Program-made: the position numbers and the translations under genes | In this document: positions 4,911 through 62,218 of the stretch, one piece after another | Layout of the letters: every line of letters starts with the position of its first letter | Position numbering within the stretch: position 1 is the first letter of the stretch | DNA from: an uncultured Carboxylicivirga sp. | Lineage (GTDB): Bacteria > Bacteroidota > Bacteroidia > Bacteroidales > Marinilabiliaceae | Direction of reading: 5' to 3' | Assembly: GCF_963668385.1 (NCBI RefSeq) | Contig: NZ_OY764327.1 | Span: 4,560,501 to 4,624,500, forward strand | DNA: 64,000 nt | Notes under the pieces: model-generated | What the model was told of the DNA's origin: nothing | What the model saw: only the letters and a program-made list of their open reading frames with translations | The model's database searches: none

Positions 4911-5405
4911 ATGGCAACAAGTTTAAAAAATTTATCAGATTATAATATTGAGGATGTTCCTTCCGCAGCATCTATGAAATTCGGAATTGTTGTTTCGGAA
5001 TGGAATACCGAAATTACCGAAGCTTTATATAATGGTGCCTTCGATACATTGGTGAAAAATGGCGCTAGTCAGGATAACATCATCAAAAAGTATGTGCCTG
5101 GAAGTTTTGAATTAACTGCTGGCGCTAAATATTTAGCTGAAATGACAGATGTTGATGCTGTTATTTGTATTGGATGCGTTATTCAGGGTGATACTCCGCA
5201 TTTCGATTTTGTATGTTCGGGAGTAACGCAAGGTATAACACAACTAAACCTTCAATACCCAATCCCATTTATTTTTAGTGTATTAACTACCTCTAATCAG
5301 CAACAAGCATTAGACAGAGCCGGAGGTAAACACGGAAACAAAGGTGACGAAGGTGCAATTACAGCCATTAAAATGGTACATTTGAAAGAATCATTGAAAG
5401 CTTAA
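4911..5405 (+). CDS. ribH: 6,7-dimethyl-8-ribityllumazine synthase
   Basis: 164 residues, the usual length. It condenses 5-amino-6-ribitylamino-uracil with dihydroxybutanone phosphate, the penultimate step of riboflavin synthesis, as an icosahedral or pentameric assembly in the cytoplasm. Visible signatures: VSEWNTEIT (the conserved F/W-N near residue 31), [29 protein letters not shown] with the catalytic His97, and the C-terminal [17 protein letters not shown]...NKGDEGA. The rest of the riboflavin pathway is not in the window. A terminator follows at 5429-5457. Confidence 0.97.
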
Positions 5406-5762
5406 TTGATACCACAAAATAGTAAAAGCACTCTGGATCTTATTCAGGGTGTTTTTTGCTTTTATACAAACCTCTTTATGCATTGTATCAATCCAACTCA
5501 TATAAGGGCTAATTATGGGCTTTAAATCAGATATTCTACTCGGAATATTCATCTTTTTTCTACGAATCACACTAAGCGGTTTCTTAATCACTTGGGTCGC
5601 ATATTCAGTTATACTTTCACTGATAACATGCACCTTTGTTTCTTCCGATTTTGTTGAACCTTTTTGTGACTTCTCATTGTGAGAAAAATACATTGGATCG
5701 AAAAATAGTTGCATAAACCATTCGGTTAGCCATTCGATTTTACTTAAAAAAAATTGTTCCAT
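5391..5762 (-). CDS. Hypothetical protein, antisense to the ribH 3' end (doubtful)
   Basis: An open frame of 123 codons from ATG 5762. It overlaps the last 15 nt of ribH and all of its terminator on the opposite strand. The N-terminus is aromatic and hydrophobic ([23 protein letters not shown]), the middle is rich in Ser/Lys/Glu, and a basic patch ([10 protein letters not shown]) follows. I recognise no domain. For: length without stops in AT-rich DNA, plausible amino-acid composition, and an otherwise unexplained 350-nt space between ribH and the next gene. Against: overlap with a neighbour's terminator and no visible promoter or ribosome site. Confidence 0.4.
5429..5457 (+). terminator. Rho-independent terminator of ribH
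   Basis: CACTCTG (5429-5435) pairs with CAGGGTG (5445-5451) through one G-T pair, followed by six T (5452-5457). Confidence 0.7.
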
Positions 5763-5869
5763 AGCTTAAGTTTTTAGAATTGTTGATGTAGGATATAAAA
5801 TCTTCGTTCTGATTCGGAAGAGAATTGTATTGCAATATTACACTGATAAACAATTTTATATGAAGTTTA

Positions 5870-5964
5870 TTAAGCACTTTATTAAGATTAATTTTTTACT
5901 TAAGTATGGATTAAGCTTAATAAAACACTTAACTTTTTGCTTAATATTTTATAGCTTTGCTTAA
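5870..5964 (+). promoter_or_regulatory. Array of eight TTAA(G)/(C)TTAA elements over a promoter
   Basis: Eight TTAA cores start at 5870, 5882, 5900, 5911, 5917, 5929, 5941 and 5961. The left ones read TTAAG and the right ones CTTAA, so the cluster is roughly symmetric about the palindrome TTAAGCTTAA (5911-5920). A -7-like TAGCTTTG lies at 5952-5959 between the last two elements, 22 nt before the ATG at 5981. This looks like a multi-site operator for the next gene; the binding protein is unknown. Confidence 0.5.
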
Positions 5965-5980
5965 TTGAGTAAATTCATTT

Positions 5981-7132
5981 ATGTCTTTTCATCCCGATCA
6001 ACATATCGTCATTAAATGTGCATTGCATCTTATGAAGCAATGGCCACTCTTTATGGATGGTATTGATCGGATCTACGGCTTTTGGCCTGATAATGGTACC
6101 AATGGCTATCAAGGCATGGAATGGCAACGAGAATTTGGAGACGAGATTCTAGATGTAAGTTTAAATACTCAAACATTCCTAAGAAACGAAGCCAAGCTTA
6201 ATACTGGTTTTCAGTGGCTAAATGCAGATCGACTTCCATTTATTTCGCAAAACAATAATCAGTTAGCGCTACCGCAATTAGATTTATTTACCGAATCGAA
6301 ATATTTGGTTTTACACATCAACCAGAAAATTGGAAGTGAAAATTCACGAGCTCATTTTTATTTGTTTTTTCGCGACAACAAAAGCAATTTTGGAATAACA
6401 GAGAGTAAAGAGGCTTATTCAACATCTGAAAAGGCAATTATTGGACGATTGGCAAAAAATCATTCTGATAGCATGGTTTCAGGATTTTTAAGTCACATTT
6501 CCGAAACAGTAAAGTTCAGAGAGACCACTCGAAACATATTGAAAGCCAAAAACAACCTTATTGAAGATGAAAAAAGTGATTTTCACAGGTGGAATAATTA
6601 TTGGCTGGATGATTATATTACTCTTTTAAGTAAAAGAGATGGCTTTAATTATGTTATAGAGAATGATGTGCGTCTGAAATTATACGAGGTATGTGACAAT
6701 CTTGAACAGATGAAGAAAAGTATCGAAAATAGTTTTGTTTACATTTGTAATCTTTACTTTTCAGAACCTGGTGATACAATAGAACTGGAATCATCCTATT
6801 TATTAATCGAACCAATGCAAGAAAATATCAATAATGCCTCTTCAACTATAAACAATAGAGTAAGTAGAACCGCAGATTTGCTAGATCGCTTGGAGAGATC
6901 AGCAATGGCAGTATTAAATAATGGCAATAACTTGACAAGCGCTGAGGTTGGCAAAAATATGGATAGAGCTATTACAGCTCCAGCTATAAGCGATGCACTT
7001 AAGAAAAATAAGGTGCGAATTCTACAATTACTATCGCAAAATCCTGATAAATGGCCAACAATACGCAGACATTTTAAGCCAGTGGTTAATCTTTATGAAA
7101 AAAACAAAGGTGACCTAAACGGCACATTGTAA
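5981..7132 (+). CDS. Protein of unknown function with basic C-terminal helical domain
   Basis: 383 residues; I do not recognise the family. No signal peptide or membrane helix, so probably cytoplasmic. The first 110 residues are rich in Trp and Asp/Asn (MKQWPLFMDGIDRIYGFWP...GMEWQREFGDEIL). The middle (about 150-290) is helical and charged. The end (about 318-375: LTSAEVGKNMDRAITAPAISDALKKNKVRILQLLSQNPDKWPTIRR split by short turns) resembles a small helical DNA-binding module: R-x-x-R/H-F-K-P after a helix pair. The promoter region carries a dense repeat array (5870-5964), which would suit self-regulation by such a protein. This is inference. Followed 100 nt later by tRNA-Lys. Confidence 0.7.
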   Translation: MSFHPDQHIVIKCALHLMKQWPLFMDGIDRIYGFWPDNGTNGYQGMEWQREFGDEILDVSLNTQTFLRNEAKLNTGFQWLNADRLPFISQNNNQLALPQLDLFTESKYLVLHINQKIGSENSRAHFYLFFRDNKSNFGITESKEAYSTSEKAIIGRLAKNHSDSMVSGFLSHISETVKFRETTRNILKAKNNLIEDEKSDFHRWNNYWLDDYITLLSKRDGFNYVIENDVRLKLYEVCDNLEQMKKSIENSFVYICNLYFSEPGDTIELESSYLLIEPMQENINNASSTINNRVSRTADLLDRLERSAMAVLNNGNNLTSAEVGKNMDRAITAPAISDALKKNKVRILQLLSQNPDKWPTIRRHFKPVVNLYEKNKGDLNGTL

Positions 7133-7182
7133 GGTATTTAACACCAAAAGGTAAAAAAAATATTACTTTTTTAATATTTTTA

Positions 7183-7214
7183 TTTGGCCAGTATTATACA
7201 AACGTCTATATTTG
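7183..7214 (+). promoter_or_regulatory. Promoter of tRNA-Lys
   Basis: TTTG at 7183-7186, 20-nt spacer, TATATTTG at 7207-7214: a near-perfect Bacteroidota sigma-A promoter, 18 nt before the tRNA 5' end. Confidence 0.8.
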
Positions 7215-7232
7215 CAACCGCAAAAACAGGAT

Positions 7233-7308
7233 GATTCAGTAGCTCAGCTGGTAGAGCACATCCCTTTTAAGGATGGGGTCCTGGGTTCGAACCCCAGCTG
7301 AATCACCA
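7233..7308 (+). tRNA. tRNA-Lys (anticodon TTT), CCA encoded
   Basis: The cloverleaf reads clearly. Acceptor GATTCAG/CTGAATC (7233-7239, 7298-7304). D arm GCTC-AGCTGGTA-GAGC. Anticodon stem CATCC/GGATG with loop CTTTTAA, giving anticodon TTT. T arm CTGGG-TTCGAAC-CCCAG. Discriminator A at 7305 and CCA at 7306-7308. The mature body is 73 nt plus CCA. Confidence 0.98.
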
Positions 7309-7309
7309 C

Positions 7310-7340
7310 AAAAGCCTCGAAATTTTTCGGGGCTTTTTTT
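7310..7340 (+). terminator. Rho-independent terminator of tRNA-Lys
   Basis: AAAAGCC...CGAAA pairs with TTTCG...GGCTTTT (7310-7337) with a G-T position, ending in a T run to 7340. Confidence 0.9.
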
Positions 7341-7613
7341 ATTTCATATGGTCCGTATTAAGCTATTTTAAGTAAGCCTTATCTTTCTCAATTATCCATT
7401 TTCGCAACATGTAGATAGGACCGTGAATTTAATCAAGTATCTTATTAAATAAACAGCTTTAGGAAGCTCTTTTCATTTCGTGGTATACGAAACTTCGTTA
7501 TTACTCCAAAAACTTAATTAGAAGGTTGGTTATCCTAATCTTTTCACTTCATCAATATTAGATCTAGAGTTTCTGTAATCGTTTTTATTTTGTGAATACA
7601 TGAAATAGCAAAC
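7341..7613. other. Gene-free stretch between convergent units
   Basis: No open frame or repeat that I can support. The region lies between the tRNA terminator and the 3' end of the pyrKD operon. Confidence 0.35.
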
Positions 7614-7683
7614 GTTTACATATGTAATTACACATGTAAACATAAACTCATGCATGTGCAATGTATAAATATACACTTGTATA
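7614..7683. promoter_or_regulatory. Abutting pair of TTACAnnTGTAA palindromes plus a related site
   Basis: TTACATATGTAA (7616-7627) and TTACACATGTAA (7628-7639) are directly adjacent 12-bp palindromes. Flanked by GTT and AAC-type ends, the whole 28-bp block 7614-7641 is itself almost a perfect inverted repeat. A related TATACACTTGTATA follows at 7670-7683. The place is unusual for an operator: both neighbouring transcription units end here. The same paired layout recurs at 10701-10724. Confidence 0.5.
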
Positions 7684-7692
7684 ATTATACAC

Positions 7693-7717
7693 AAAAAAAA
7701 CCGGACAAAATGTCCGG
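7693..7717 (-). terminator. Rho-independent terminator of pyrK-pyrD
   Basis: CCGGAC (7701-7706) pairs with GTCCGG (7712-7717). On the minus strand eight T follow (7693-7700). Confidence 0.95.
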
Positions 7718-7742
7718 CTGTAAGGTCAATAGAATGATATGC

Positions 7743-8654
7743 TTATACTTCCATAGCTCCAATTAATTCTGAAGCACTTTTAAAGCCATTCTCTTTACAA
7801 TATTTCTCTATTCCTTCAACAATCTTAACTGTAACTAATGGATCAACAAAATTAGCTGTACCTACTTGCACTGCTGAAGCTCCAGCCAACATAAATTCAA
7901 TAGCATCAGTTGCATTCATTATCCCCCCCATACCTACAATTGGAATCTTTACAGCTTGTGCAACCTGCCATACCATACGTAAAGCAACTGGTTTCACCGC
8001 AGGTCCTGATAAACCGCCTGTTATAGTAGATAAAACCGGACGACGTGTCTTTGCATTAATAGCCATCCCTAGTAATGTATTAATTAATGATACTGAATCA
8101 GCTCCATTATCCTCAACAGCCTTTGCTATTTCAGTTATATCAGTAACATTAGGTGATAACTTCACTATTAAATGCTTTTTATACACCTTTCGTACAGCAC
8201 TTACAACCGCAACAGCAGAAGGACAACTGGTTCCGAATGCCATTCCACCTTCTTTTACATTCGGGCATGAAATGTTTAATTCAATTCCAGGAATGTTATC
8301 TAATGAATTTACCACTTCGGCCGTTTCAACGTATTCATCTATTGTTGAACCCGATACATTAACCAACATATTGGTATCATAGTCCTTTATGCGAGGGTAA
8401 ATAGTATCAGCAAAATAGTGAACTCCTTTATTTTGAAGCCCCACGGCATTAAGCATACCTTTAGGAGTTTCCGCCATTCGTGGATAAGGATTTCCTTCGC
8501 GATGGTTTAAAGTTGTACCTTTTACTAATACACCGCCTAAGCGCGCAATATCAAAAAAGTCCATAAACTCCTCACCATAACCAAAGGTTCCTGAGGCTGT
8601 CATTACCGGGTTCTTCAACTTCAACCCGTTTAAATTAATATTTAAGTCTACCAT
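7743..8654 (-). CDS. pyrD: Dihydroorotate dehydrogenase B, catalytic subunit
   Basis: 303-residue class 1B enzyme (PyrDB). It oxidises dihydroorotate to orotate in pyrimidine synthesis using FMN and passes electrons to PyrK and NAD+. Visible: N-terminal [31 protein letters not shown], the active-site loop [13 protein letters not shown] (the Cys is the catalytic base in class 1 enzymes), [11 protein letters not shown], and the phosphate-binding C-terminal part [29 protein letters not shown]. The start overlaps the 3' end of pyrK by 7 nt, so the two are translationally coupled. Confidence 0.97.
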
Positions 8655-35194: not shown

Positions 35195-35341
35195 ATGAAA
35201 AGTTGGTGACCTGAAATGAAAAATTTATGACCTTGAGCCATTTATTTATGACCCAGAATGAAAAGTTGGTGACCTTGAGTCATTTTTTTGTGACCCGGAA
35301 TGAAAAGTTTATGACGATAAGTCATTTGAAGCTGCCTTTAA
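35195..35341. repeat. 21-bp tandem repeat (minisatellite), 7 units
   Basis: Units start at 35195, 35216, 35237, 35258, 35279, 35300 and 35321. Two unit types occur: type A ATGAAAAGTTGGTGACCTTGA (at 35195, 35216, 35258, 35300) and type B GTCATTTTTTTGTGACCCGGA (at 35237, 35279, 35321). They share TGACC; from 35216 on the order is A-B-A-B-A-B. The period is divisible by three, so frames read through as 7-residue repeats, but no start site or protein family supports translation. Confidence 0.75.
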
Positions 35342-35471
35342 ATAACAAAATCATCCTTTTTAAAATTAACTATCAAAATAAAACATGTTATTGTAACAAC
35401 CAATTATACAATCACATTAAGTAATATTCATACCAATTTAAAGGGAATTAAAACACATTAATTGAGTCGTA

Positions 35472-35505
35472 TTATTGCAACAGTGTTGCAATAATTTTAC
35501 TTTTG
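35472..35505 (+). promoter_or_regulatory. Promoter overlapped by a perfect 11-1-11 palindrome (Fur/Zur-like operator)
   Basis: TTATTGCAACA (35472-35482), one G, then TGTTGCAATAA (35484-35494): a perfect 23-bp inverted repeat. TTG at 35475-35477 and TACTTTTG at 35498-35505 form a promoter with a 20-nt spacer, so the palindrome covers the -33 box and most of the spacer. The geometry (odd length, single central base) fits Fur-family metal regulators. It sits 51 nt before the first gene of the metal-uptake-like locus. Confidence 0.7.
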
Positions 35506-35555
35506 CATCCATTAATTGTTCTACTCAACGCTAGAACATCTAACCAATTAACTGA

Positions 35556-35921
35556 TTGAAAGAATTTAAATCACATATTACCATATTACTATTAGGTATA
35601 TTGCTGTACCCTATAGTTTTTCAATCAGTGCATTTAGTGCATCATCATCTTGATGATCATCATATTTGTGAACATTCAAACTGCGATGTTGAATTAAAGC
35701 AGGATGATAACAGATCTGCCAATAAGAGTTTTTCAGAATTGGAAACTCTGTGTCCAATATGCGAATATGAATTTCCGGTAAAAGACTTACCAATACACAA
35801 CTCATATCATTCATTTGTTGATTGTAAGTATAGCATACTTATTATTGCTATTAAAAAACTACACTCACTTGAGGATAGAACCATAAAATCGCCCCGAGCT
35901 CCCCCAGCTCTTTTTGCTTAA
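35556..35921 (+). CDS. His/Cys-rich small membrane or periplasmic protein, putative metal binding
   Basis: 121 residues from a TTG start (no in-frame ATG in the N-terminal part). One hydrophobic segment (about 8-24, ITILLLGILLYPIVFQS) is followed by a His cluster (VHLVHHHLDDHHICEHSNC, residues 25-43) and a C-x-x-C motif (CPICEYEF, C66, C69). The C-terminus is SPRAPPALFA; a similar R-A-P-P end occurs in the proteobacterial DUF2946 proteins found beside copper and TonB-receptor genes. First gene behind the 35472-35505 operator and upstream of a TonB receptor. A role in sensing or handling zinc or copper is inference. Confidence 0.75.
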   Translation: MKEFKSHITILLLGILLYPIVFQSVHLVHHHLDDHHICEHSNCDVELKQDDNRSANKSFSELETLCPICEYEFPVKDLPIHNSYHSFVDCKYSILIIAIKKLHSLEDRTIKSPRAPPALFA

Positions 35922-36138
35922 ACAATAGGTTATTAGTTTATAAAAGAGAATCAGCCTTTTATTTATACACTTTAAGTAATACTCCTAAATATAATTAATA
36001 GGTTCTGTAAATAGATTTTTATTGAAATCTAAACAGAATTACTATCGGTTATATATTAGGTAAGTCAGGCTGCGTATATTCTCTAACCTATTAAAGTACC
36101 AATTATTTTCGGGTGGTTTAATCTCAATTATTTATAAT

Positions 36139-38535
36139 ATGAGTAAAAAAATCATGCTATTACTATGCATGAGTATTTTCTGGACTTTTGTTACAGGACA
36201 AAACCGTTATATCCTAAAAGGATCGGTTGTTGACGATAAAAACATAGTATTAACCGGTGCTGCAGTAGTTTTACATCCGGTTGAAGCAGGAACCGTTAGC
36301 GATTACAATGGCAATTTTGAAATTAATAATCTATTGGCTGGCACTTATACTCTTGAAGTATCTTTCATTGGCCATCGCACCCTTATTGATACCCTTACCA
36401 TCAGTAAGAATAGAATATATAATGCCCGATTAAAATGCAGGTCGCTAAACTTGCAGGAGGTAGTTATAAAAGACCACTATGCTGATGAGCGTAAAAGAGA
36501 AGAATCTCTGAATATTGAAGTGGTAAACGATGATTACCTTAAACAAAACATGGGCGGTAGTTTAATGAAATCATTGGAACGATTACCCGGCGTTTCTACC
36601 ATTGATATTGGATCGGGTCAATCAAAGCCAGTAATTCGTGGATTGGGATTTAACCGTGTAGTGGTAGTTGAAAACAACATTAAGCACGAAGGGCAACAAT
36701 GGGGCGAAGACCATGGTTTGGAAGTTGATCAGTATTCGGTTGATAATATTGAAGTAATAAAGGGACCTGCTTCTTTAATGTACGGTTCTGATGCTATTGG
36801 CGGTGTAATTGATATGAATAACCGGAAAATACCAACCGATAATAGTTTTGGAGGTAGAGTTGATCTTACCGGAAAAAGCAATAACAACTTGGTAGGTGGT
36901 TCTTTGTCGGTATTTGGTAGAAAAAAGTGGTTCTTTGCCGAATTCAGAGCTACAATTCTGGATTATGGCGATTATCGTGTACCAACCGACAGCGTTGAAA
37001 TATACTCTTATAAAGCAGCTTTGCACAAAAATTATATGCGCAATACTGCCGGTAAGGAGCACGATTTTCATCTATCTCTGGGCATTGTAAAAAATCGATT
37101 TCAAAGTCGGTTTTACATCAGTAATATTCACAGTAAAAATGGTTTTTTTGCCAATGCTCACGGATTAGAGCCCCGCAATGTAGATACCGAATTGCATGAT
37201 CGCTCAAATAGGGATATTAACGATCCATATCAGGAGGTAAATCACTTTAAAGTGATCAATACCAGTAAATATCAGGATGATAAATTGCAGATTGAAACCA
37301 ACCTGGGATATCAGATTAATTTCAGAGAAGAATGGAGTGTTTATACCAGTCATGGATATATGCCACCGGTTTTTCCCGACACTTTATCTTTCAATCCTCG
37401 ATTGGAGCGTCAGTTCGACAAAAGCGTTTATACTGCAAATGCCAAAGCAAAATATCAGGTAAATGAAGCCACACAACTTGCGTTAGGATTTAACGGTGAA
37501 TATCAAAACAACCAAATTGACGGACGCGGTTTTATTATTCCTGCCTATCAACAATTAACATTGGGTGGTTTTGCTTTTGCTAAACACAAATTTTCAGATA
37601 AAAGCATGATGCAAATGGGTGTTCGTTACGATTATGGTTCAATTAAAACCAATCAATACAACGATTGGTTTCCATCGCCCGAAATTGAAAATGGTGATAC
37701 CACCTGGGTGTATTTGCAACGAGCAGGTAACATTGATCGTAATTTCCCCAATTTTACATGGTCGGTCGGATACAATTACAATGCTCATCATTGGAGTTTT
37801 AAGGCAAATTTGGGTAAAAGTTTTAGAATGCCCATTGCTAAGGAGCTGGCAGCTAATGGAGTTAATTATCATCGGTTTAGCTATGAAGTAGGCGACCCGG
37901 ATTTATCGCCCGAAATATCGTATCAACTGGATTTAGGATTAGAATATTTTACCGATCGATGGGCCCTTGGTGCCACTCCTTTTCTAAACTATTTCTCCAA
38001 TTATATTTATCTGAATCCTACTTCGGAGCATGATAGACTATATGGAAACGGAAATCAAATATTTAACTATACCGAAAGTCAGGTTTTTAGGTATGGAACA
38101 GAAATCCATGCACATTACGAAATCCTAAAATCATTACAATTAGGTTTGATTGGTGAATATGTGTATTCCGAGCAATTATCAGGAGCTAAGAAAGGATTTA
38201 CACTTCCGTTTTCGCCACCTGCCTCTGCCATCTTTAATATTAAATACCGACCCGAAACGGTATTGTTTCTTAAAGACAGCTATCTGTCAGTTGATGTTAG
38301 GCTAACAAGCGCTCAAAATAACATTGTACCTCCCGAGAAACCCACAGATGGTTCTCAGGTAGTAAATGTTGGATTTGGAGGTACGGCTCGATGGAACAAA
38401 CAACCCATTAACTTATCGCTACAGGTTCAAAATATTTTAAACAGCAAGTATTTTAACCATACCAGTTATTACAGGCTCATAAATGTGCCTGAACCGGGAC
38501 GAAATTTTGTATTGAATATTTCTGTTCCGTTTTAG
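36139..38535 (+). CDS. TonB-dependent receptor, putative metal (zinc/copper) importer
   Basis: 798 residues. Signal peptide (1-20), carboxypeptidase-regulatory-like domain (about 25-100), plug (about 120-235) with VIRGLGFNRVVVVENN and GQQWGEDHGLEVD (185-197), then VIKGPASLMYGSDAIGGVI. A 22-strand barrel ends in GRNFVLNISVPF. The plug segment rich in Glu/Asp/His and the His-rich neighbours point to a metal or metal-complex ligand and not to a sugar (there is no SusD). I think of the ZnuD-like zinc receptors, but cannot prove it. It lies between the His-rich protein and two DUF4625-type lipoproteins on the same strand. Confidence 0.88.
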   Translation: MSKKIMLLLCMSIFWTFVTGQNRYILKGSVVDDKNIVLTGAAVVLHPVEAGTVSDYNGNFEINNLLAGTYTLEVSFIGHRTLIDTLTISKNRIYNARLKCRSLNLQEVVIKDHYADERKREESLNIEVVNDDYLKQNMGGSLMKSLERLPGVSTIDIGSGQSKPVIRGLGFNRVVVVENNIKHEGQQWGEDHGLEVDQYSVDNIEVIKGPASLMYGSDAIGGVIDMNNRKIPTDNSFGGRVDLTGKSNNNLVGGSLSVFGRKKWFFAEFRATILDYGDYRVPTDSVEIYSYKAALHKNYMRNTAGKEHDFHLSLGIVKNRFQSRFYISNIHSKNGFFANAHGLEPRNVDTELHDRSNRDINDPYQEVNHFKVINTSKYQDDKLQIETNLGYQINFREEWSVYTSHGYMPPVFPDTLSFNPRLERQFDKSVYTANAKAKYQVNEATQLALGFNGEYQNNQIDGRGFIIPAYQQLTLGGFAFAKHKFSDKSMMQMGVRYDYGSIKTNQYNDWFPSPEIENGDTTWVYLQRAGNIDRNFPNFTWSVGYNYNAHHWSFKANLGKSFRMPIAKELAANGVNYHRFSYEVGDPDLSPEISYQLDLGLEYFTDRWALGATPFLNYFSNYIYLNPTSEHDRLYGNGNQIFNYTESQVFRYGTEIHAHYEILKSLQLGLIGEYVYSEQLSGAKKGFTLPFSPPASAIFNIKYRPETVLFLKDSYLSVDVRLTSAQNNIVPPEKPTDGSQVVNVGFGGTARWNKQPINLSLQVQNILNSKYFNHTSYYRLINVPEPGRNFVLNISVPF

Positions 38536-38575
38536 TATTAATAATCAAATATTTATAATAATTAAAATTGAAAAG

Positions 38576-39406
38576 ATGACTCAAAAATTGAAATTAACAG
38601 CTTCTGTATTATCATTAGCTTTCTTAACTTTCTTTACTTCGTGCGAAAAGGATGACGAGGGTGTTGCAAAGCCAACAATTTCTGATTTGGAAATAGGAAT
38701 TGGTAATAGTTTGATTGGCTATATCGGCAGTGATTTACATATTGAAGCCGAAGTTGTTGCTGAAGGATATTTAAATACCATTACAGTTGAGATTCATGCC
38801 GAAGATGGCAGCGACAATGAAATTGAAGCAGTATATGATTATTCCGATCAGAATTTAAAGAACACTGAATTTCATAAACATGTTGATATACCTGGTAATT
38901 TTCCTGTAGGTGAATATCATTTACATTTAATAGTTACTGATAAAGAAGGTAACTCTACAACCGTTGAAGAAGATATCACTCTTGAGGAACTGGTAGATGA
39001 AGAAGCTCCGGTAATAACTATTACATCAGCCCCTACAAGTGGACAGGCGTTTGCTAACGGTGAAACAATTTCTATCTCCGGTACAATTACCGACAATATT
39101 TCATTGGCAGGTATGGTTGTGGCTTTGGTTTACGAATCGGACAATATTGCCGATACCGATGTATCGGGCGCTGCTGGTACTAAGGTAATTGTTATGCTAC
39201 ATACTCATGATTTTGGTGATGACCCAGATGAAACCGATTTCACAGCATCTATTGCTGTTGGTGCAGAATACGATAATAATATGACACCTGCAGTTATAAG
39301 CGGTGATAATGCATGGAAAAAAGGTAATTACTATTTACTTGTTAAAAGCACAGACGCTAAAAGCAACTGGGCTATTTCAGACCGTTATCCAATAACAATC
39401 AATTAA
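38576..39406 (+). CDS. DUF4625-type lipoprotein, His-rich, two Ig-like modules
   Basis: 276 residues. Lipoprotein signal with Cys23 (LTFFTSCEKDDEG). Two beta-sandwich modules are visible: about 30-135 (ISDLEIGIGNSLIGY...HLHLIVTDKEGNSTTVEEDI) and 140-275 (PVITITSAPTSGQAFANGETISISGTI...YYLLVKSTDAKSNWAISD). His-rich strands EFHKHVDIPG, GEYHLHL and MLHTHDFGDDPDE could bind metal. It starts 41 nt after the TonB receptor, so it is probably in the same operon and surface-exposed or periplasmic next to the receptor. Confidence 0.82.
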   Translation: MTQKLKLTASVLSLAFLTFFTSCEKDDEGVAKPTISDLEIGIGNSLIGYIGSDLHIEAEVVAEGYLNTITVEIHAEDGSDNEIEAVYDYSDQNLKNTEFHKHVDIPGNFPVGEYHLHLIVTDKEGNSTTVEEDITLEELVDEEAPVITITSAPTSGQAFANGETISISGTITDNISLAGMVVALVYESDNIADTDVSGAAGTKVIVMLHTHDFGDDPDETDFTASIAVGAEYDNNMTPAVISGDNAWKKGNYYLLVKSTDAKSNWAISDRYPITIN

Positions 39407-39456
39407 TAATTTTACAGGCAGATCTTTAACCGGGTCTGCCTACAAAACCATTTCAA

Positions 39457-39948
39457 ATGAAGTATTCTATTAATGTATTTGTTGCTGTTTTGTTGATAAT
39501 ATCTTTTTATTCATGCAGTGAGGAAAAAGATATTGATACCGAAAAACCAACCATAGATATCGACTTCGACGGTGCTTTCCCCACAAGTTGCGATACACTT
39601 TATATCGGCGAAGATTCACAAATAAAACTCCGATTTGCCGATAATGTTGAATTAGGATCATATAGTATAAATATCCATAACAACTTTGACCATCATTCGC
39701 ATAGCACCGAACTCGAAGAGTGTGAATTAGAAGATATTAAAACTCCAACTAATCCTTGGGAAGTAACCAATACCTATTCAATACCCGAAGGTCAGAAAGA
39801 ATACGAAACAGACATAACTTTTTCTGTTCCATCATCAAATAATAATGGAACTATTGAAGAAGGAGATTATCACTTTTTTATCAGCCTTACAGACAAAACA
39901 GGCTGGTCGACTCAAAAAGGCTTAAGTATTAAACTGCTATATCGCTAA
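39457..39948 (+). CDS. DUF4625-type lipoprotein, short His-rich form
   Basis: 163 residues, one module. Lipoprotein signal with Cys20 (IISFYSCSEEKD), then EKPTIDIDFDGAFPTSCDTLYIGEDSQIKLRFADNVEL in short segments and the His-rich INIHNNFDHHSHSTELEECELED. It ends in YHFFISLTDKTGWSTQKGLSIKLLY. The N-H-N-F-D-H-H-x-H pattern is what I associate with DUF4625. Last gene of the TonB-receptor operon, closed by a 19-bp perfect hairpin. Probably a partner of the receptor in metal capture (inference). Confidence 0.82.
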   Translation: MKYSINVFVAVLLIISFYSCSEEKDIDTEKPTIDIDFDGAFPTSCDTLYIGEDSQIKLRFADNVELGSYSINIHNNFDHHSHSTELEECELEDIKTPTNPWEVTNTYSIPEGQKEYETDITFSVPSSNNNGTIEEGDYHFFISLTDKTGWSTQKGLSIKLLYR

Positions 39949-39970
39949 CACAGAATAGCTCAATGCATAA

Positions 39971-40019
39971 ATGTGCCGGTTATCAATGATACTACTTTAC
40001 TCATTGATAACCGGCACAT
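39971..40019. terminator. Perfect 19-bp hairpin between convergent genes
   Basis: 39971-39989 and 40001-40019 are perfectly complementary (core GTGCCGGTTATCAATGA), with an 11-nt loop. No T run follows on either strand, so it is a strong stem without the classic tail. The position between two converging units suits bidirectional termination or 3'-end protection. Confidence 0.7.
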
Positions 40020-40068
40020 CAAATAATTGATAATTTACTTTCCTGACTTCGGGTTTTGCACTACCAAT

Positions 40069-61709: not shown

Positions 61710-62174
61710 TTACTGAATTGTAACATCAACATTTGTTATTAACTCATTCCCTTCTTTATCAGTTACAACAAATTTAAGTTGATAGGCACCACCTAAGCAA
61801 TTCATTTCAATGGCTTCATCAAATAAATTTGCGTTTACTGTCTCAGTTTCCCCACTTAAATCTATTTCGTATGATTCATTATTTTCAGCAGGTGCCCATG
61901 GGCTTCCAAAACCTTTTAATGAAGCCGATTCAATACTTTGATCAAGATACTCAATTGTTACAACACATTTCGATAACTCTTTATTATCCTTAAATGTAGC
62001 ATTGAGCCCCATCTCTACCCCTTTTGAATAGTTTGTTGTACCATCCAATAAAGGTTTAGTAAATTCAATTGTTGGAGCTTCTGTATCTTTTTCAGGGCTA
62101 TCGCTTTTACTACAAGCCATCAATAAGATTGTACTTGCAAAGCCCAATGTAAAAATGCGGAATATTCTTTTCAT
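61710..62174 (-). CDS. Small lipoprotein, Ig-like/DUF4625-related
   Basis: 154 residues from ATG 62174 (MKRIFRIFTLGFASTILLMAC, lipobox LLMAC). The mature part starts SKSDSPEKDTEAPTIEFTKP and continues GVEMGLNATFKDNKELSKCVVTIEYLD and YQLKFVVTDKEGNELITNVDV, the same strand order as the two DUF4625-type lipoproteins at 38.5-39.9 kb but without their His clusters. Minus-strand TATATTTG at 62192-62199 is a likely -7 element. Own terminator. Function unknown. Confidence 0.78.
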   Translation of the reverse strand: MKRIFRIFTLGFASTILLMACSKSDSPEKDTEAPTIEFTKPLLDGTTNYSKGVEMGLNATFKDNKELSKCVVTIEYLDQSIESASLKGFGSPWAPAENNESYEIDLSGETETVNANLFDEAIEMNCLGGAYQLKFVVTDKEGNELITNVDVTIQ

Positions 62175-62218
62175 CAGATTAGTATTTTCCACAAATATAG
62201 TTTTTAAAACTACTTTTA

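Follow-up and report, generated by a model that had tools for sequence, protein, structure and literature searches.

A putative Zur-controlled zinc-scavenging operon of Carboxylicivirga with a CruR/CutF-like leader and DUF4625 lipoproteins

Our study concerns a 64,000-nucleotide stretch of the genome of an uncultured Carboxylicivirga sp. (contig NZ_OY764327.1, positions 4,560,501 to 4,624,500; hereafter the window), which carries a candidate metal-acquisition operon on its forward strand. A palindromic operator with no strand assigned, which we class as a Zur-type box (35471..35495), is followed by the gene for a small His/Cys protein of 121 residues (35556..35921), a 217-nucleotide (nt) intergenic leader (35922..36138), the gene for a ZnuD-like TonB-dependent receptor of 798 residues with CarboxypepD_reg, plug and barrel regions (36139..38535), and the genes for two DUF4625 lipoproteins, A (38576..39406) and B (39457..39948). 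An initial annotation, made from the sequence alone, had listed this gene content, and our analysis confirms it. We propose, with a probability of about 0.7, that the locus serves zinc scavenging through a ZnuD-like receptor and lipoproteins bearing a His site, and that its expression is controlled at two levels, by Zur at the promoter and by a CruR/CutF-like leader behind it. The gene order, the motifs, their spacing and the correlation of the His site with the receptor, as described below, are established computationally.

The operator is a perfect 12-1-12 palindrome, ATTATTGCAACA-G-TGTTGCAATAAT, each arm being one base longer than in the 11-1-11 repeat first reported. Within it lies a TTG (35475..35477, forward strand), a candidate -33 element, and 20 nt past this TTG, just beyond the operator, stands TACTTTTG (35498..35505, forward strand), a candidate -7 element of the form TAnnTTTG; we take the two together to be the -33/-7 promoter layout of Bacteroidota, in keeping with the promoter that had been proposed beneath the palindrome. 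A scan for sigma-70 promoters gave no match above chance. With up to 3 mismatches allowed, the core pattern of the box has two matches in the window, one exact and one with 3 mismatches, and shuffled controls gave a mean of 0.69 matches, with two or more in 18 of 100; it is therefore the exact match that counts. The exact sequence TTGCAACANTGTTGCAA occurs in the 6.27-Mb genome at the window site alone, and a position weight matrix derived from 49 related boxes, with the window box left out, scores this site at 29.4 and the runner-up in the 64 kb at 11.1. When the window box is added to those 49, TAnnTTTG is found at one of two fixed offsets in 40 of the 50 boxes, starting at -5 nt from the box in 33 and at +23 nt from the box start in 8 (one locus has both), and the window promoter belongs to the +23 register. 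Both registers set the operator on the promoter, as would be expected of a repressor site, and palindromes of this kind are common among Fur-family operators.

The genes found behind this box elsewhere point to zinc. Only two sites in the window genome differ from it by 1 mismatch; they stand in tandem directly 5' of a Fur-family gene, which is followed by znuA, znuC, znuB and a gene for a second receptor with a His-rich loop. The encoded ZnuA also has a His-rich loop and matches Pfam ZnuA at 2.4e-54. The Zur-type regulator of this genome was identified by its Fur domain and its linkage to znuABC, near 966 kb; no scanned Fur-family protein reached the NCBIfam Zur equivalog cut-off. Elsewhere in the family the box lies directly 5' of znuA (L289 and L290), 5' of the gene for a cobW/COG0523 GTPase (L292; Pfam, 3.3e-51) and 5' of that for a second GTPase of the COG0523 kind, recognised by motif alone (L224); COG0523 GTPases are typical Zur targets. 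The suggestion that the palindrome would recur before znuA thus proved right, with zur and COG0523 genes in addition, and none turned up before ribosomal protein paralogues, the other place suggested, in scans that did not look for these by name. Among 27 family loci, the next gene after a box with at most 1 mismatch is Zur-type in 16, znuA in 3, COG0523 in 2 and the small-protein gene in 2, and 4 of the 27 are unassigned. Boxes of this stringency occur in 33 of 60 family genomes and 29 of 149 order genomes (reversed-pattern controls, 3 of 60 and 3 of 149); a lone one-mismatch match is not specific, since boxes in the order sample often lie inside genes (12 of the 28 order loci examined, with 8 tied to a zur- or receptor-type gene and 8 unassigned). 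The identity of the window operator with zinc-gene operators is established computationally. The initial annotation had envisaged Zur- or Fur-like control by zinc or copper; the box-linked zinc genes clearly favour zinc and Zur over iron and Fur, and copper keeps some weight, given the likeness of the small protein to CruR, a copper sensor. A midpoint-rooted tree of the regulators, with many inner forks open and some long branches, groups the operon-linked Zurs in a clade (97/96) that excludes the znu-linked ones; a single operon-encoded Zur, that of L214, lies outside it. The box class is the same for both groups. The window genome encodes four Fur-family proteins, none of which falls in the operon-linked clade, so that the window operon is likely regulated by the znu-linked Zur. 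As a separate observation, L292 carries at 5109-8206 a Zur-type box followed by genes for the COG0523 GTPase, an ATP-binding cassette (ABC) ATPase and a permease of MacB/FtsX type in which a long segment is rich in His, possibly a new zinc-responsive module.

The operon recurs in relatives. Scanning with the DUF4625 alignment, we confirmed at least 566 relatives and retained the best 80 loci, in which H74 and H80 of lipoprotein B are fixed by construction through the scan pattern I/V-H-x-N-F-x-x-H. The 80 loci span several Bacteroidota orders and include one Balneolaceae record; in 61 we see where the receptor operon starts, in 7 a contig end breaks the receptor, and 8 have no upstream receptor (7 with less than 900 nt of upstream sequence, and L144 with 9 kb). 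In four Flavobacterium loci (L197, L208, L209, L213) the order is DUF4625-A, DUF4625-B, receptor, the receptor being downstream. Counting a box from 500 nt upstream to 60 nt inside the first recognised gene, we find one with at most 3 mismatches at 49 of the 61 close operon starts, at most 2 at 43, at most 1 at 20 and an exact one at 4, against 0 of 61 for the reversed control; these loci were picked for closeness and are related, and do not represent 61 independent events. A Zur-type gene belongs to the operon in 37 of the 61, and in 40 we detected the small protein. The family sample adds boxes upstream of five orthologues of at least 53% identity (G164, G202, G158, G194, G029) and of G199 (44%), and in 7 of the 16 family receptor loci fetched a box scores above 15. 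Two of those 7 (L278 and L279, genus g136) have diverged: an operator variant, TTGAAACAATGTTTCAA / TTTGAAACAATGTTTCAA, stands 5' of a Zur-type gene, the receptor and DUF4625, which suggests operator drift inside the family.

The best match of the receptor in the Protein Data Bank is ZnuD (5.5e-24), followed by colicin I, haem and siderophore receptors (1.4e-10 and weaker) and OprC (1.6e-6). Its plug contains an acidic/His segment, EDHGLEVD, in which Asp191-His192 (codons 36709..36714, forward strand) align with chain residues 113-114 of 4rdr. Applying a 14-residue offset, we infer that these are Asp-99 and His-100, which are zinc ligands of ZnuD (PMC4557270). With the same offset the ZnuD ligand His499 falls two residues from H578, which is kept in 88 of 100 receptor rows, and Glu340 lies outside the alignment. 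Across these rows, which include the window and some loci twice, D191 is conserved in 89, H192 in 98, E195 in 96, D197 in 99 and H774 in 100; the acidic/His plug segment and the lipoprotein His clusters remarked on at the outset are real and conserved features. The receptor scores 140 bits with the NCBIfam ZnuD model NF038289, far below its cut-off of 950, and we accordingly describe it as ZnuD-like and not as ZnuD. It resembles the neisserial zinc receptor in being a TonB receptor with conserved Asp-His ligands in the plug (PMC4557270), and differs from it in this score, in an extra N-terminal CarboxypepD_reg domain and in the lipoprotein genes alongside.

Lipoproteins A and B match Pfam DUF4625 (PF15418) above its cut-off (5.7e-29 and 9.6e-38). 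Structure prediction assigns two Ig-like domains to A (lipobox C23) and one to B (lipobox C20), with high confidence for both (mean predicted local distance difference test scores of 92.7 and 92.2). Lipoprotein A has its own conserved histidines (H55, H74, H100, H102, H115), and the sequence after its lipobox cysteine, EKDDE, resembles the Bacteroidota surface-export signal. In lipoprotein B a 21-sequence alignment, which was not selected by the His-containing scan pattern, shows H74, H80 and H139 invariant and H82 kept in at least 90%. Of the 39 receptor-adjacent copies that could be read, among them the window copy, 38 retain all four; the exception is L106, which lacks H82 (the L278 copy is cut and unreadable). 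The site extends to distant copies and to those that lack a box. Of four copies with no adjacent receptor detected, three (L096, L102, L119) have the complete set of histidines, and L122 has none. None of the four aligned DUF4625 paralogues of the window genome (61710-62192, L027, L028, L029; a fifth, L030, was left out of the alignment) has the site. The loci of L027, L028 and L030, which adjoin long receptor-type genes that appear SusC-like by eye, are comparable to the operon in setting a DUF4625 lipoprotein beside a long TonB-linked receptor-type gene, as in SusC/SusD-like loci, and differ in that the aligned ones have no His site. The DUF4625 lipoprotein at 61710-62192 on the reverse strand has no receptor beside it. 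The proposal that DUF4625 proteins act as receptor partners is supported, at the level of sequence, by adjacency and by the absence of the His site from the aligned paralogues. Bacteroidota have other TonB receptors with ligand-binding lipoprotein partners, HmuR/HmuY among them; this pair and XusA/XusB differ from the window system in handling haem or an iron siderophore and in belonging to other lipoprotein families. XusA/XusB of Bacteroides thetaiotaomicron likewise joins a TonB receptor to a ligand-binding lipoprotein (PMC12574912).

The small protein, encoded by a CruR/CutF-like leader open reading frame, consists of an N-terminal hydrophobic segment, a His-rich region, a CxxC motif (C66-C69, CPIC; codons 35751..35762) and a C-terminal RAPP (R114-P117; codons 35895..35906) 4 residues short of the stop. 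We compared 42 copies, the window and 41 found by BLAST with a few reference copies, a procedure that favours similar ones. All 42 end in RAPP or RGPP 1 to 8 residues ahead of the stop, and the distance from CxxC to the R is 48 residues in 38 and 47 in 1, across a 44-residue linker with a median pairwise identity of 18% and behind an N-terminus of variable length. The RAPP motif is written in 36 different codon strings in the 42 genes, which argues for selection on the peptide. CxxC and RAPP at a fixed spacing are hallmarks of the copper-responsive leader peptide CruR. In CruR of Bordetella pertussis, CxxC occupies residues 90-93 and RAPP residues 139-142, a spacing of 49; the peptide heads an operon with a TonB receptor, both motifs and their spacing are needed, and copper on the CxxC is proposed to lift the arrest and let Rho terminate transcription (PMC9426467). 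CutF of Rhodobacter capsulatus acts during export, and some 45 residues are argued to set its metal motif in the periplasmic SecY vestibule (PMC9973294). CruR and CutF thus share with the window an exported leader reading frame, a cysteine metal motif, a C-terminal proline motif and metal genes behind, and in CruR also the TonB receptor and nearly the same spacing (49 against 48); they differ in serving copper and not a Zur-box operon, and in that Pfam DUF2946 does not pick up the window protein. When RAPP-like arrest peptides stall, the third motif residue occupies the P-site (PMC10987492). The small protein is likely, judging from these motifs, to be an arrest-peptide regulator, a point that the initial annotation had missed. 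In the window copy alone, a terminator-like hairpin formed from the RAPP codons is followed by TTTTT (35896-35910). Elsewhere in the window genome, L026 (6326-12118) holds a Fur-family gene, a 3-mismatch box, two small proteins and a pump gene. The first small protein ends in RAPP and is DUF6769-like (7.3e-4, below cut-off); by eye, the second is TRASH-like and the pump is of the CzcA/CusA type (resistance-nodulation-division, RND). The locus may be a counterpart for efflux that uses its leader in the same way.

From these features we infer zinc-dependent repression, arrest, the metal of the leader, zinc binding by the DUF4625 proteins, surface exposure and transport, and they suggest the following model. 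When cytoplasmic zinc is ample, a Zur-type Fur-family repressor would bind 35471-35495, an operator that overlies the -33 element and borders the -7 element, and shut off transcription; zinc starvation would free the promoter. The first translated product would be the CruR/CutF-like leader, on which the ribosome probably pauses at the C-terminal RAPP, and the 48-residue distance would put the CxxC approximately where the chain leaves the ribosome and translocon. Metal bound at the CxxC, with help from the His-rich segment, would end the pause, and less receptor would be made. The ZnuD-like receptor would take in zinc through the Asp-His site of its plug, and the two His-site lipoproteins may capture or pass on zinc or a zinc complex, by analogy with XusB and its iron-siderophore. 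The full version of this scheme, in which some Bacteroidota would monitor zinc in two compartments for a single operon, such that Zur reads cytoplasmic zinc at the promoter, the CruR-like chain, while still being synthesised, reads periplasmic metal with its 48-residue CxxC-RAPP ruler and gates the receptor, and the DUF4625 pair performs surface zinc capture, is more tentative than the zinc-scavenging operon itself, and we rate its chances at somewhat below even.

Several observations weigh against the proposed operon with its two control layers, and they concern both the operator and the leader. By our rule 12 of the 61 close operon starts have no box (a nearby box is seen in 3: L149, L195, L214), and the small protein was undetected in 21 of the 61. 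In the order sample a box with at most 3 mismatches stands directly upstream in only 6 of 24 receptor-DUF4625 loci (L098, L099, L100, L103, L106, L109), whose receptors all have at least 45% identity to that of the window, and directly upstream of no receptor below 45%; in L097 zur and a box lie about 9 kb away. The expectation of a palindrome before orthologous loci therefore holds for the close relatives and fails for most of the order sample. Nine of the 16 family receptor loci (L280-L288) have no box scoring above 15, although their readable copies keep the four-His site, and are candidates for another operator or regulator. In view of this patchiness, Zur control through the operator is limited to a part of the receptor family that includes the window. 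As regards the leader, 3 of the 42 copies have no CxxC at the expected place, and the RNA of the intergenic leader, strongly folded in the window (z -4.15), has no structure that is generally conserved in relatives. The window protein gives no match to Pfam DUF2946 (PF11162) at E<=1, and the cut-off of this model was passed in 0 of 149 Bacteroidales genomes; among 26 aligned relatives 6 match it, the best at 6.3e-4, and it is the sole family matched by more than one member. With motifs and spacing like those of CruR yet no Pfam DUF2946 match, the protein is called CruR-like in its working and is not filed as a member. As CruR is a sensor of copper, this could also be the metal that the leader reports.

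An operon for copper, or for nickel or cobalt, would have a CruR-type copper sensor as its leader, a receptor that imports copper and a box recognised by a Fur-family regulator with a different specificity. CruR does sit 5' of a copper-regulated TonB receptor with CxxC as its copper motif (PMC9426467), some CutF-like proteins have been suggested for nickel and cobalt (PMC9973294), and a 3-mismatch box and a RAPP-ending small protein precede the RND pump gene in the window genome; the box is nevertheless common to znuABC and COG0523 genes, ZnuD is the nearest solved relative of the receptor, with OprC far weaker, and the ABC binding protein has a His-rich loop, which makes this explanation improbable. 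Iron uptake, with the box acting as a Fur site, is the least credible of the alternatives, with very little probability: the regulator belongs to the Fur family, and such palindromes are common to its operators, but the genes linked to the box are zinc genes, and the two higher-scoring Fur-domain genes of the window genome are not box-linked and fall outside the box-linked regulators in the midpoint-rooted tree with its long branches.

Two further alternatives concern the parts of the operon and deserve more weight, though each is unlikely. The likelier, to which we would give about one chance in four, makes the small protein a stable, membrane-anchored metal-buffering or chaperone peptide and no arrest regulator. 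Its His/Cys-rich composition and N-terminal hydrophobic segment would suit such a role, as would the absence of a conserved RNA structure in the intergenic leader and the merely weak folding at the receptor start; most RAPP-like proteins tested, from E. coli and B. subtilis, showed no efficient stalling, and arrest by CruR and CutF lacked direct demonstration (PMC10987492). A folded binder would, however, hardly explain the exact spacing of 48 over a linker of 18% identity, the variable N-terminus and the RAPP or RGPP 1 to 8 residues from the stop. A little less probable is the import by the receptor and DUF4625 of a zinc-carrying organic ligand (a zincophore, or a haem-like or peptide complex) in place of ionic zinc. 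NCBIfam haem-receptor models score the receptor as high as the ZnuD model does, all below cut-off, the DUF4625 paralogues adjoin genes that are SusC/SusD-like by eye, and the predicted Ig-like fold resembles carbohydrate-binding modules, among others. Against this, the His site belongs to the receptor-linked DUF4625 proteins and is found in none of the four aligned paralogues, and ZnuD itself was initially misannotated as a haem receptor (PMC4557270).

Zur-controlled TonB receptors and receptors with lipoprotein partners are known kinds of system; the novelty lies in combining them, in DUF4625 as a candidate partner and in a leader that may respond to zinc. In Caulobacter crescentus, Zur operators likewise overlap the promoters of the TonB zinc receptors ZnuK, ZnuL and ZnuM (PMC4176598); that regulon differs from the window in phylum and operator sequence, and neither DUF4625 nor a RAPP leader was seen before these receptors in the excerpts of that paper. 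DUF4625 is named in no paper of the literature searched, and neither the operon nor a zinc arrest peptide is described among the matches listed, a search of titles and abstract starts that left subscription papers mostly outside. In the available text of the CutF paper Bacteroidota are named once, in a figure legend, and the word zinc is not used (PMC9973294); the excerpts of the CruR, CutF and RAPP literature searched contain no zinc-responsive arrest peptide. If the full two-compartment scheme is correct, the leader would be the first zinc-responsive arrest peptide, as far as we know. It is a candidate zinc counterpart to the copper leader-peptide sensors, and its fixed spacing offers a clean handle on the possible reading of metal by a nascent chain outside the cytoplasm. 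DUF4625 would gain a testable function, and Zur in Bacteroidota an operator and an initial set of targets. Since relatives of lipoprotein B occur in 24 of the 149 order genomes sampled and close loci in several orders, this may be a common route of zinc acquisition.

The surroundings of the operon hold further repeats. Upstream of the operator lie a tandem repeat of 2.9 copies of a 42-bp unit (35206-35327) and a stretch of about 180 bp (34874 to ~35055) with inverted ends (GTTCAACCCACTTT...), which by eye is like a miniature inverted-repeat transposable element and whose left end has one match in the window. Behind the operon, an inverted repeat with no strand assigned (39960..40030; 30-nt arms, 83%) is a possible terminator shared with a convergent gene that by eye is msrA-like.

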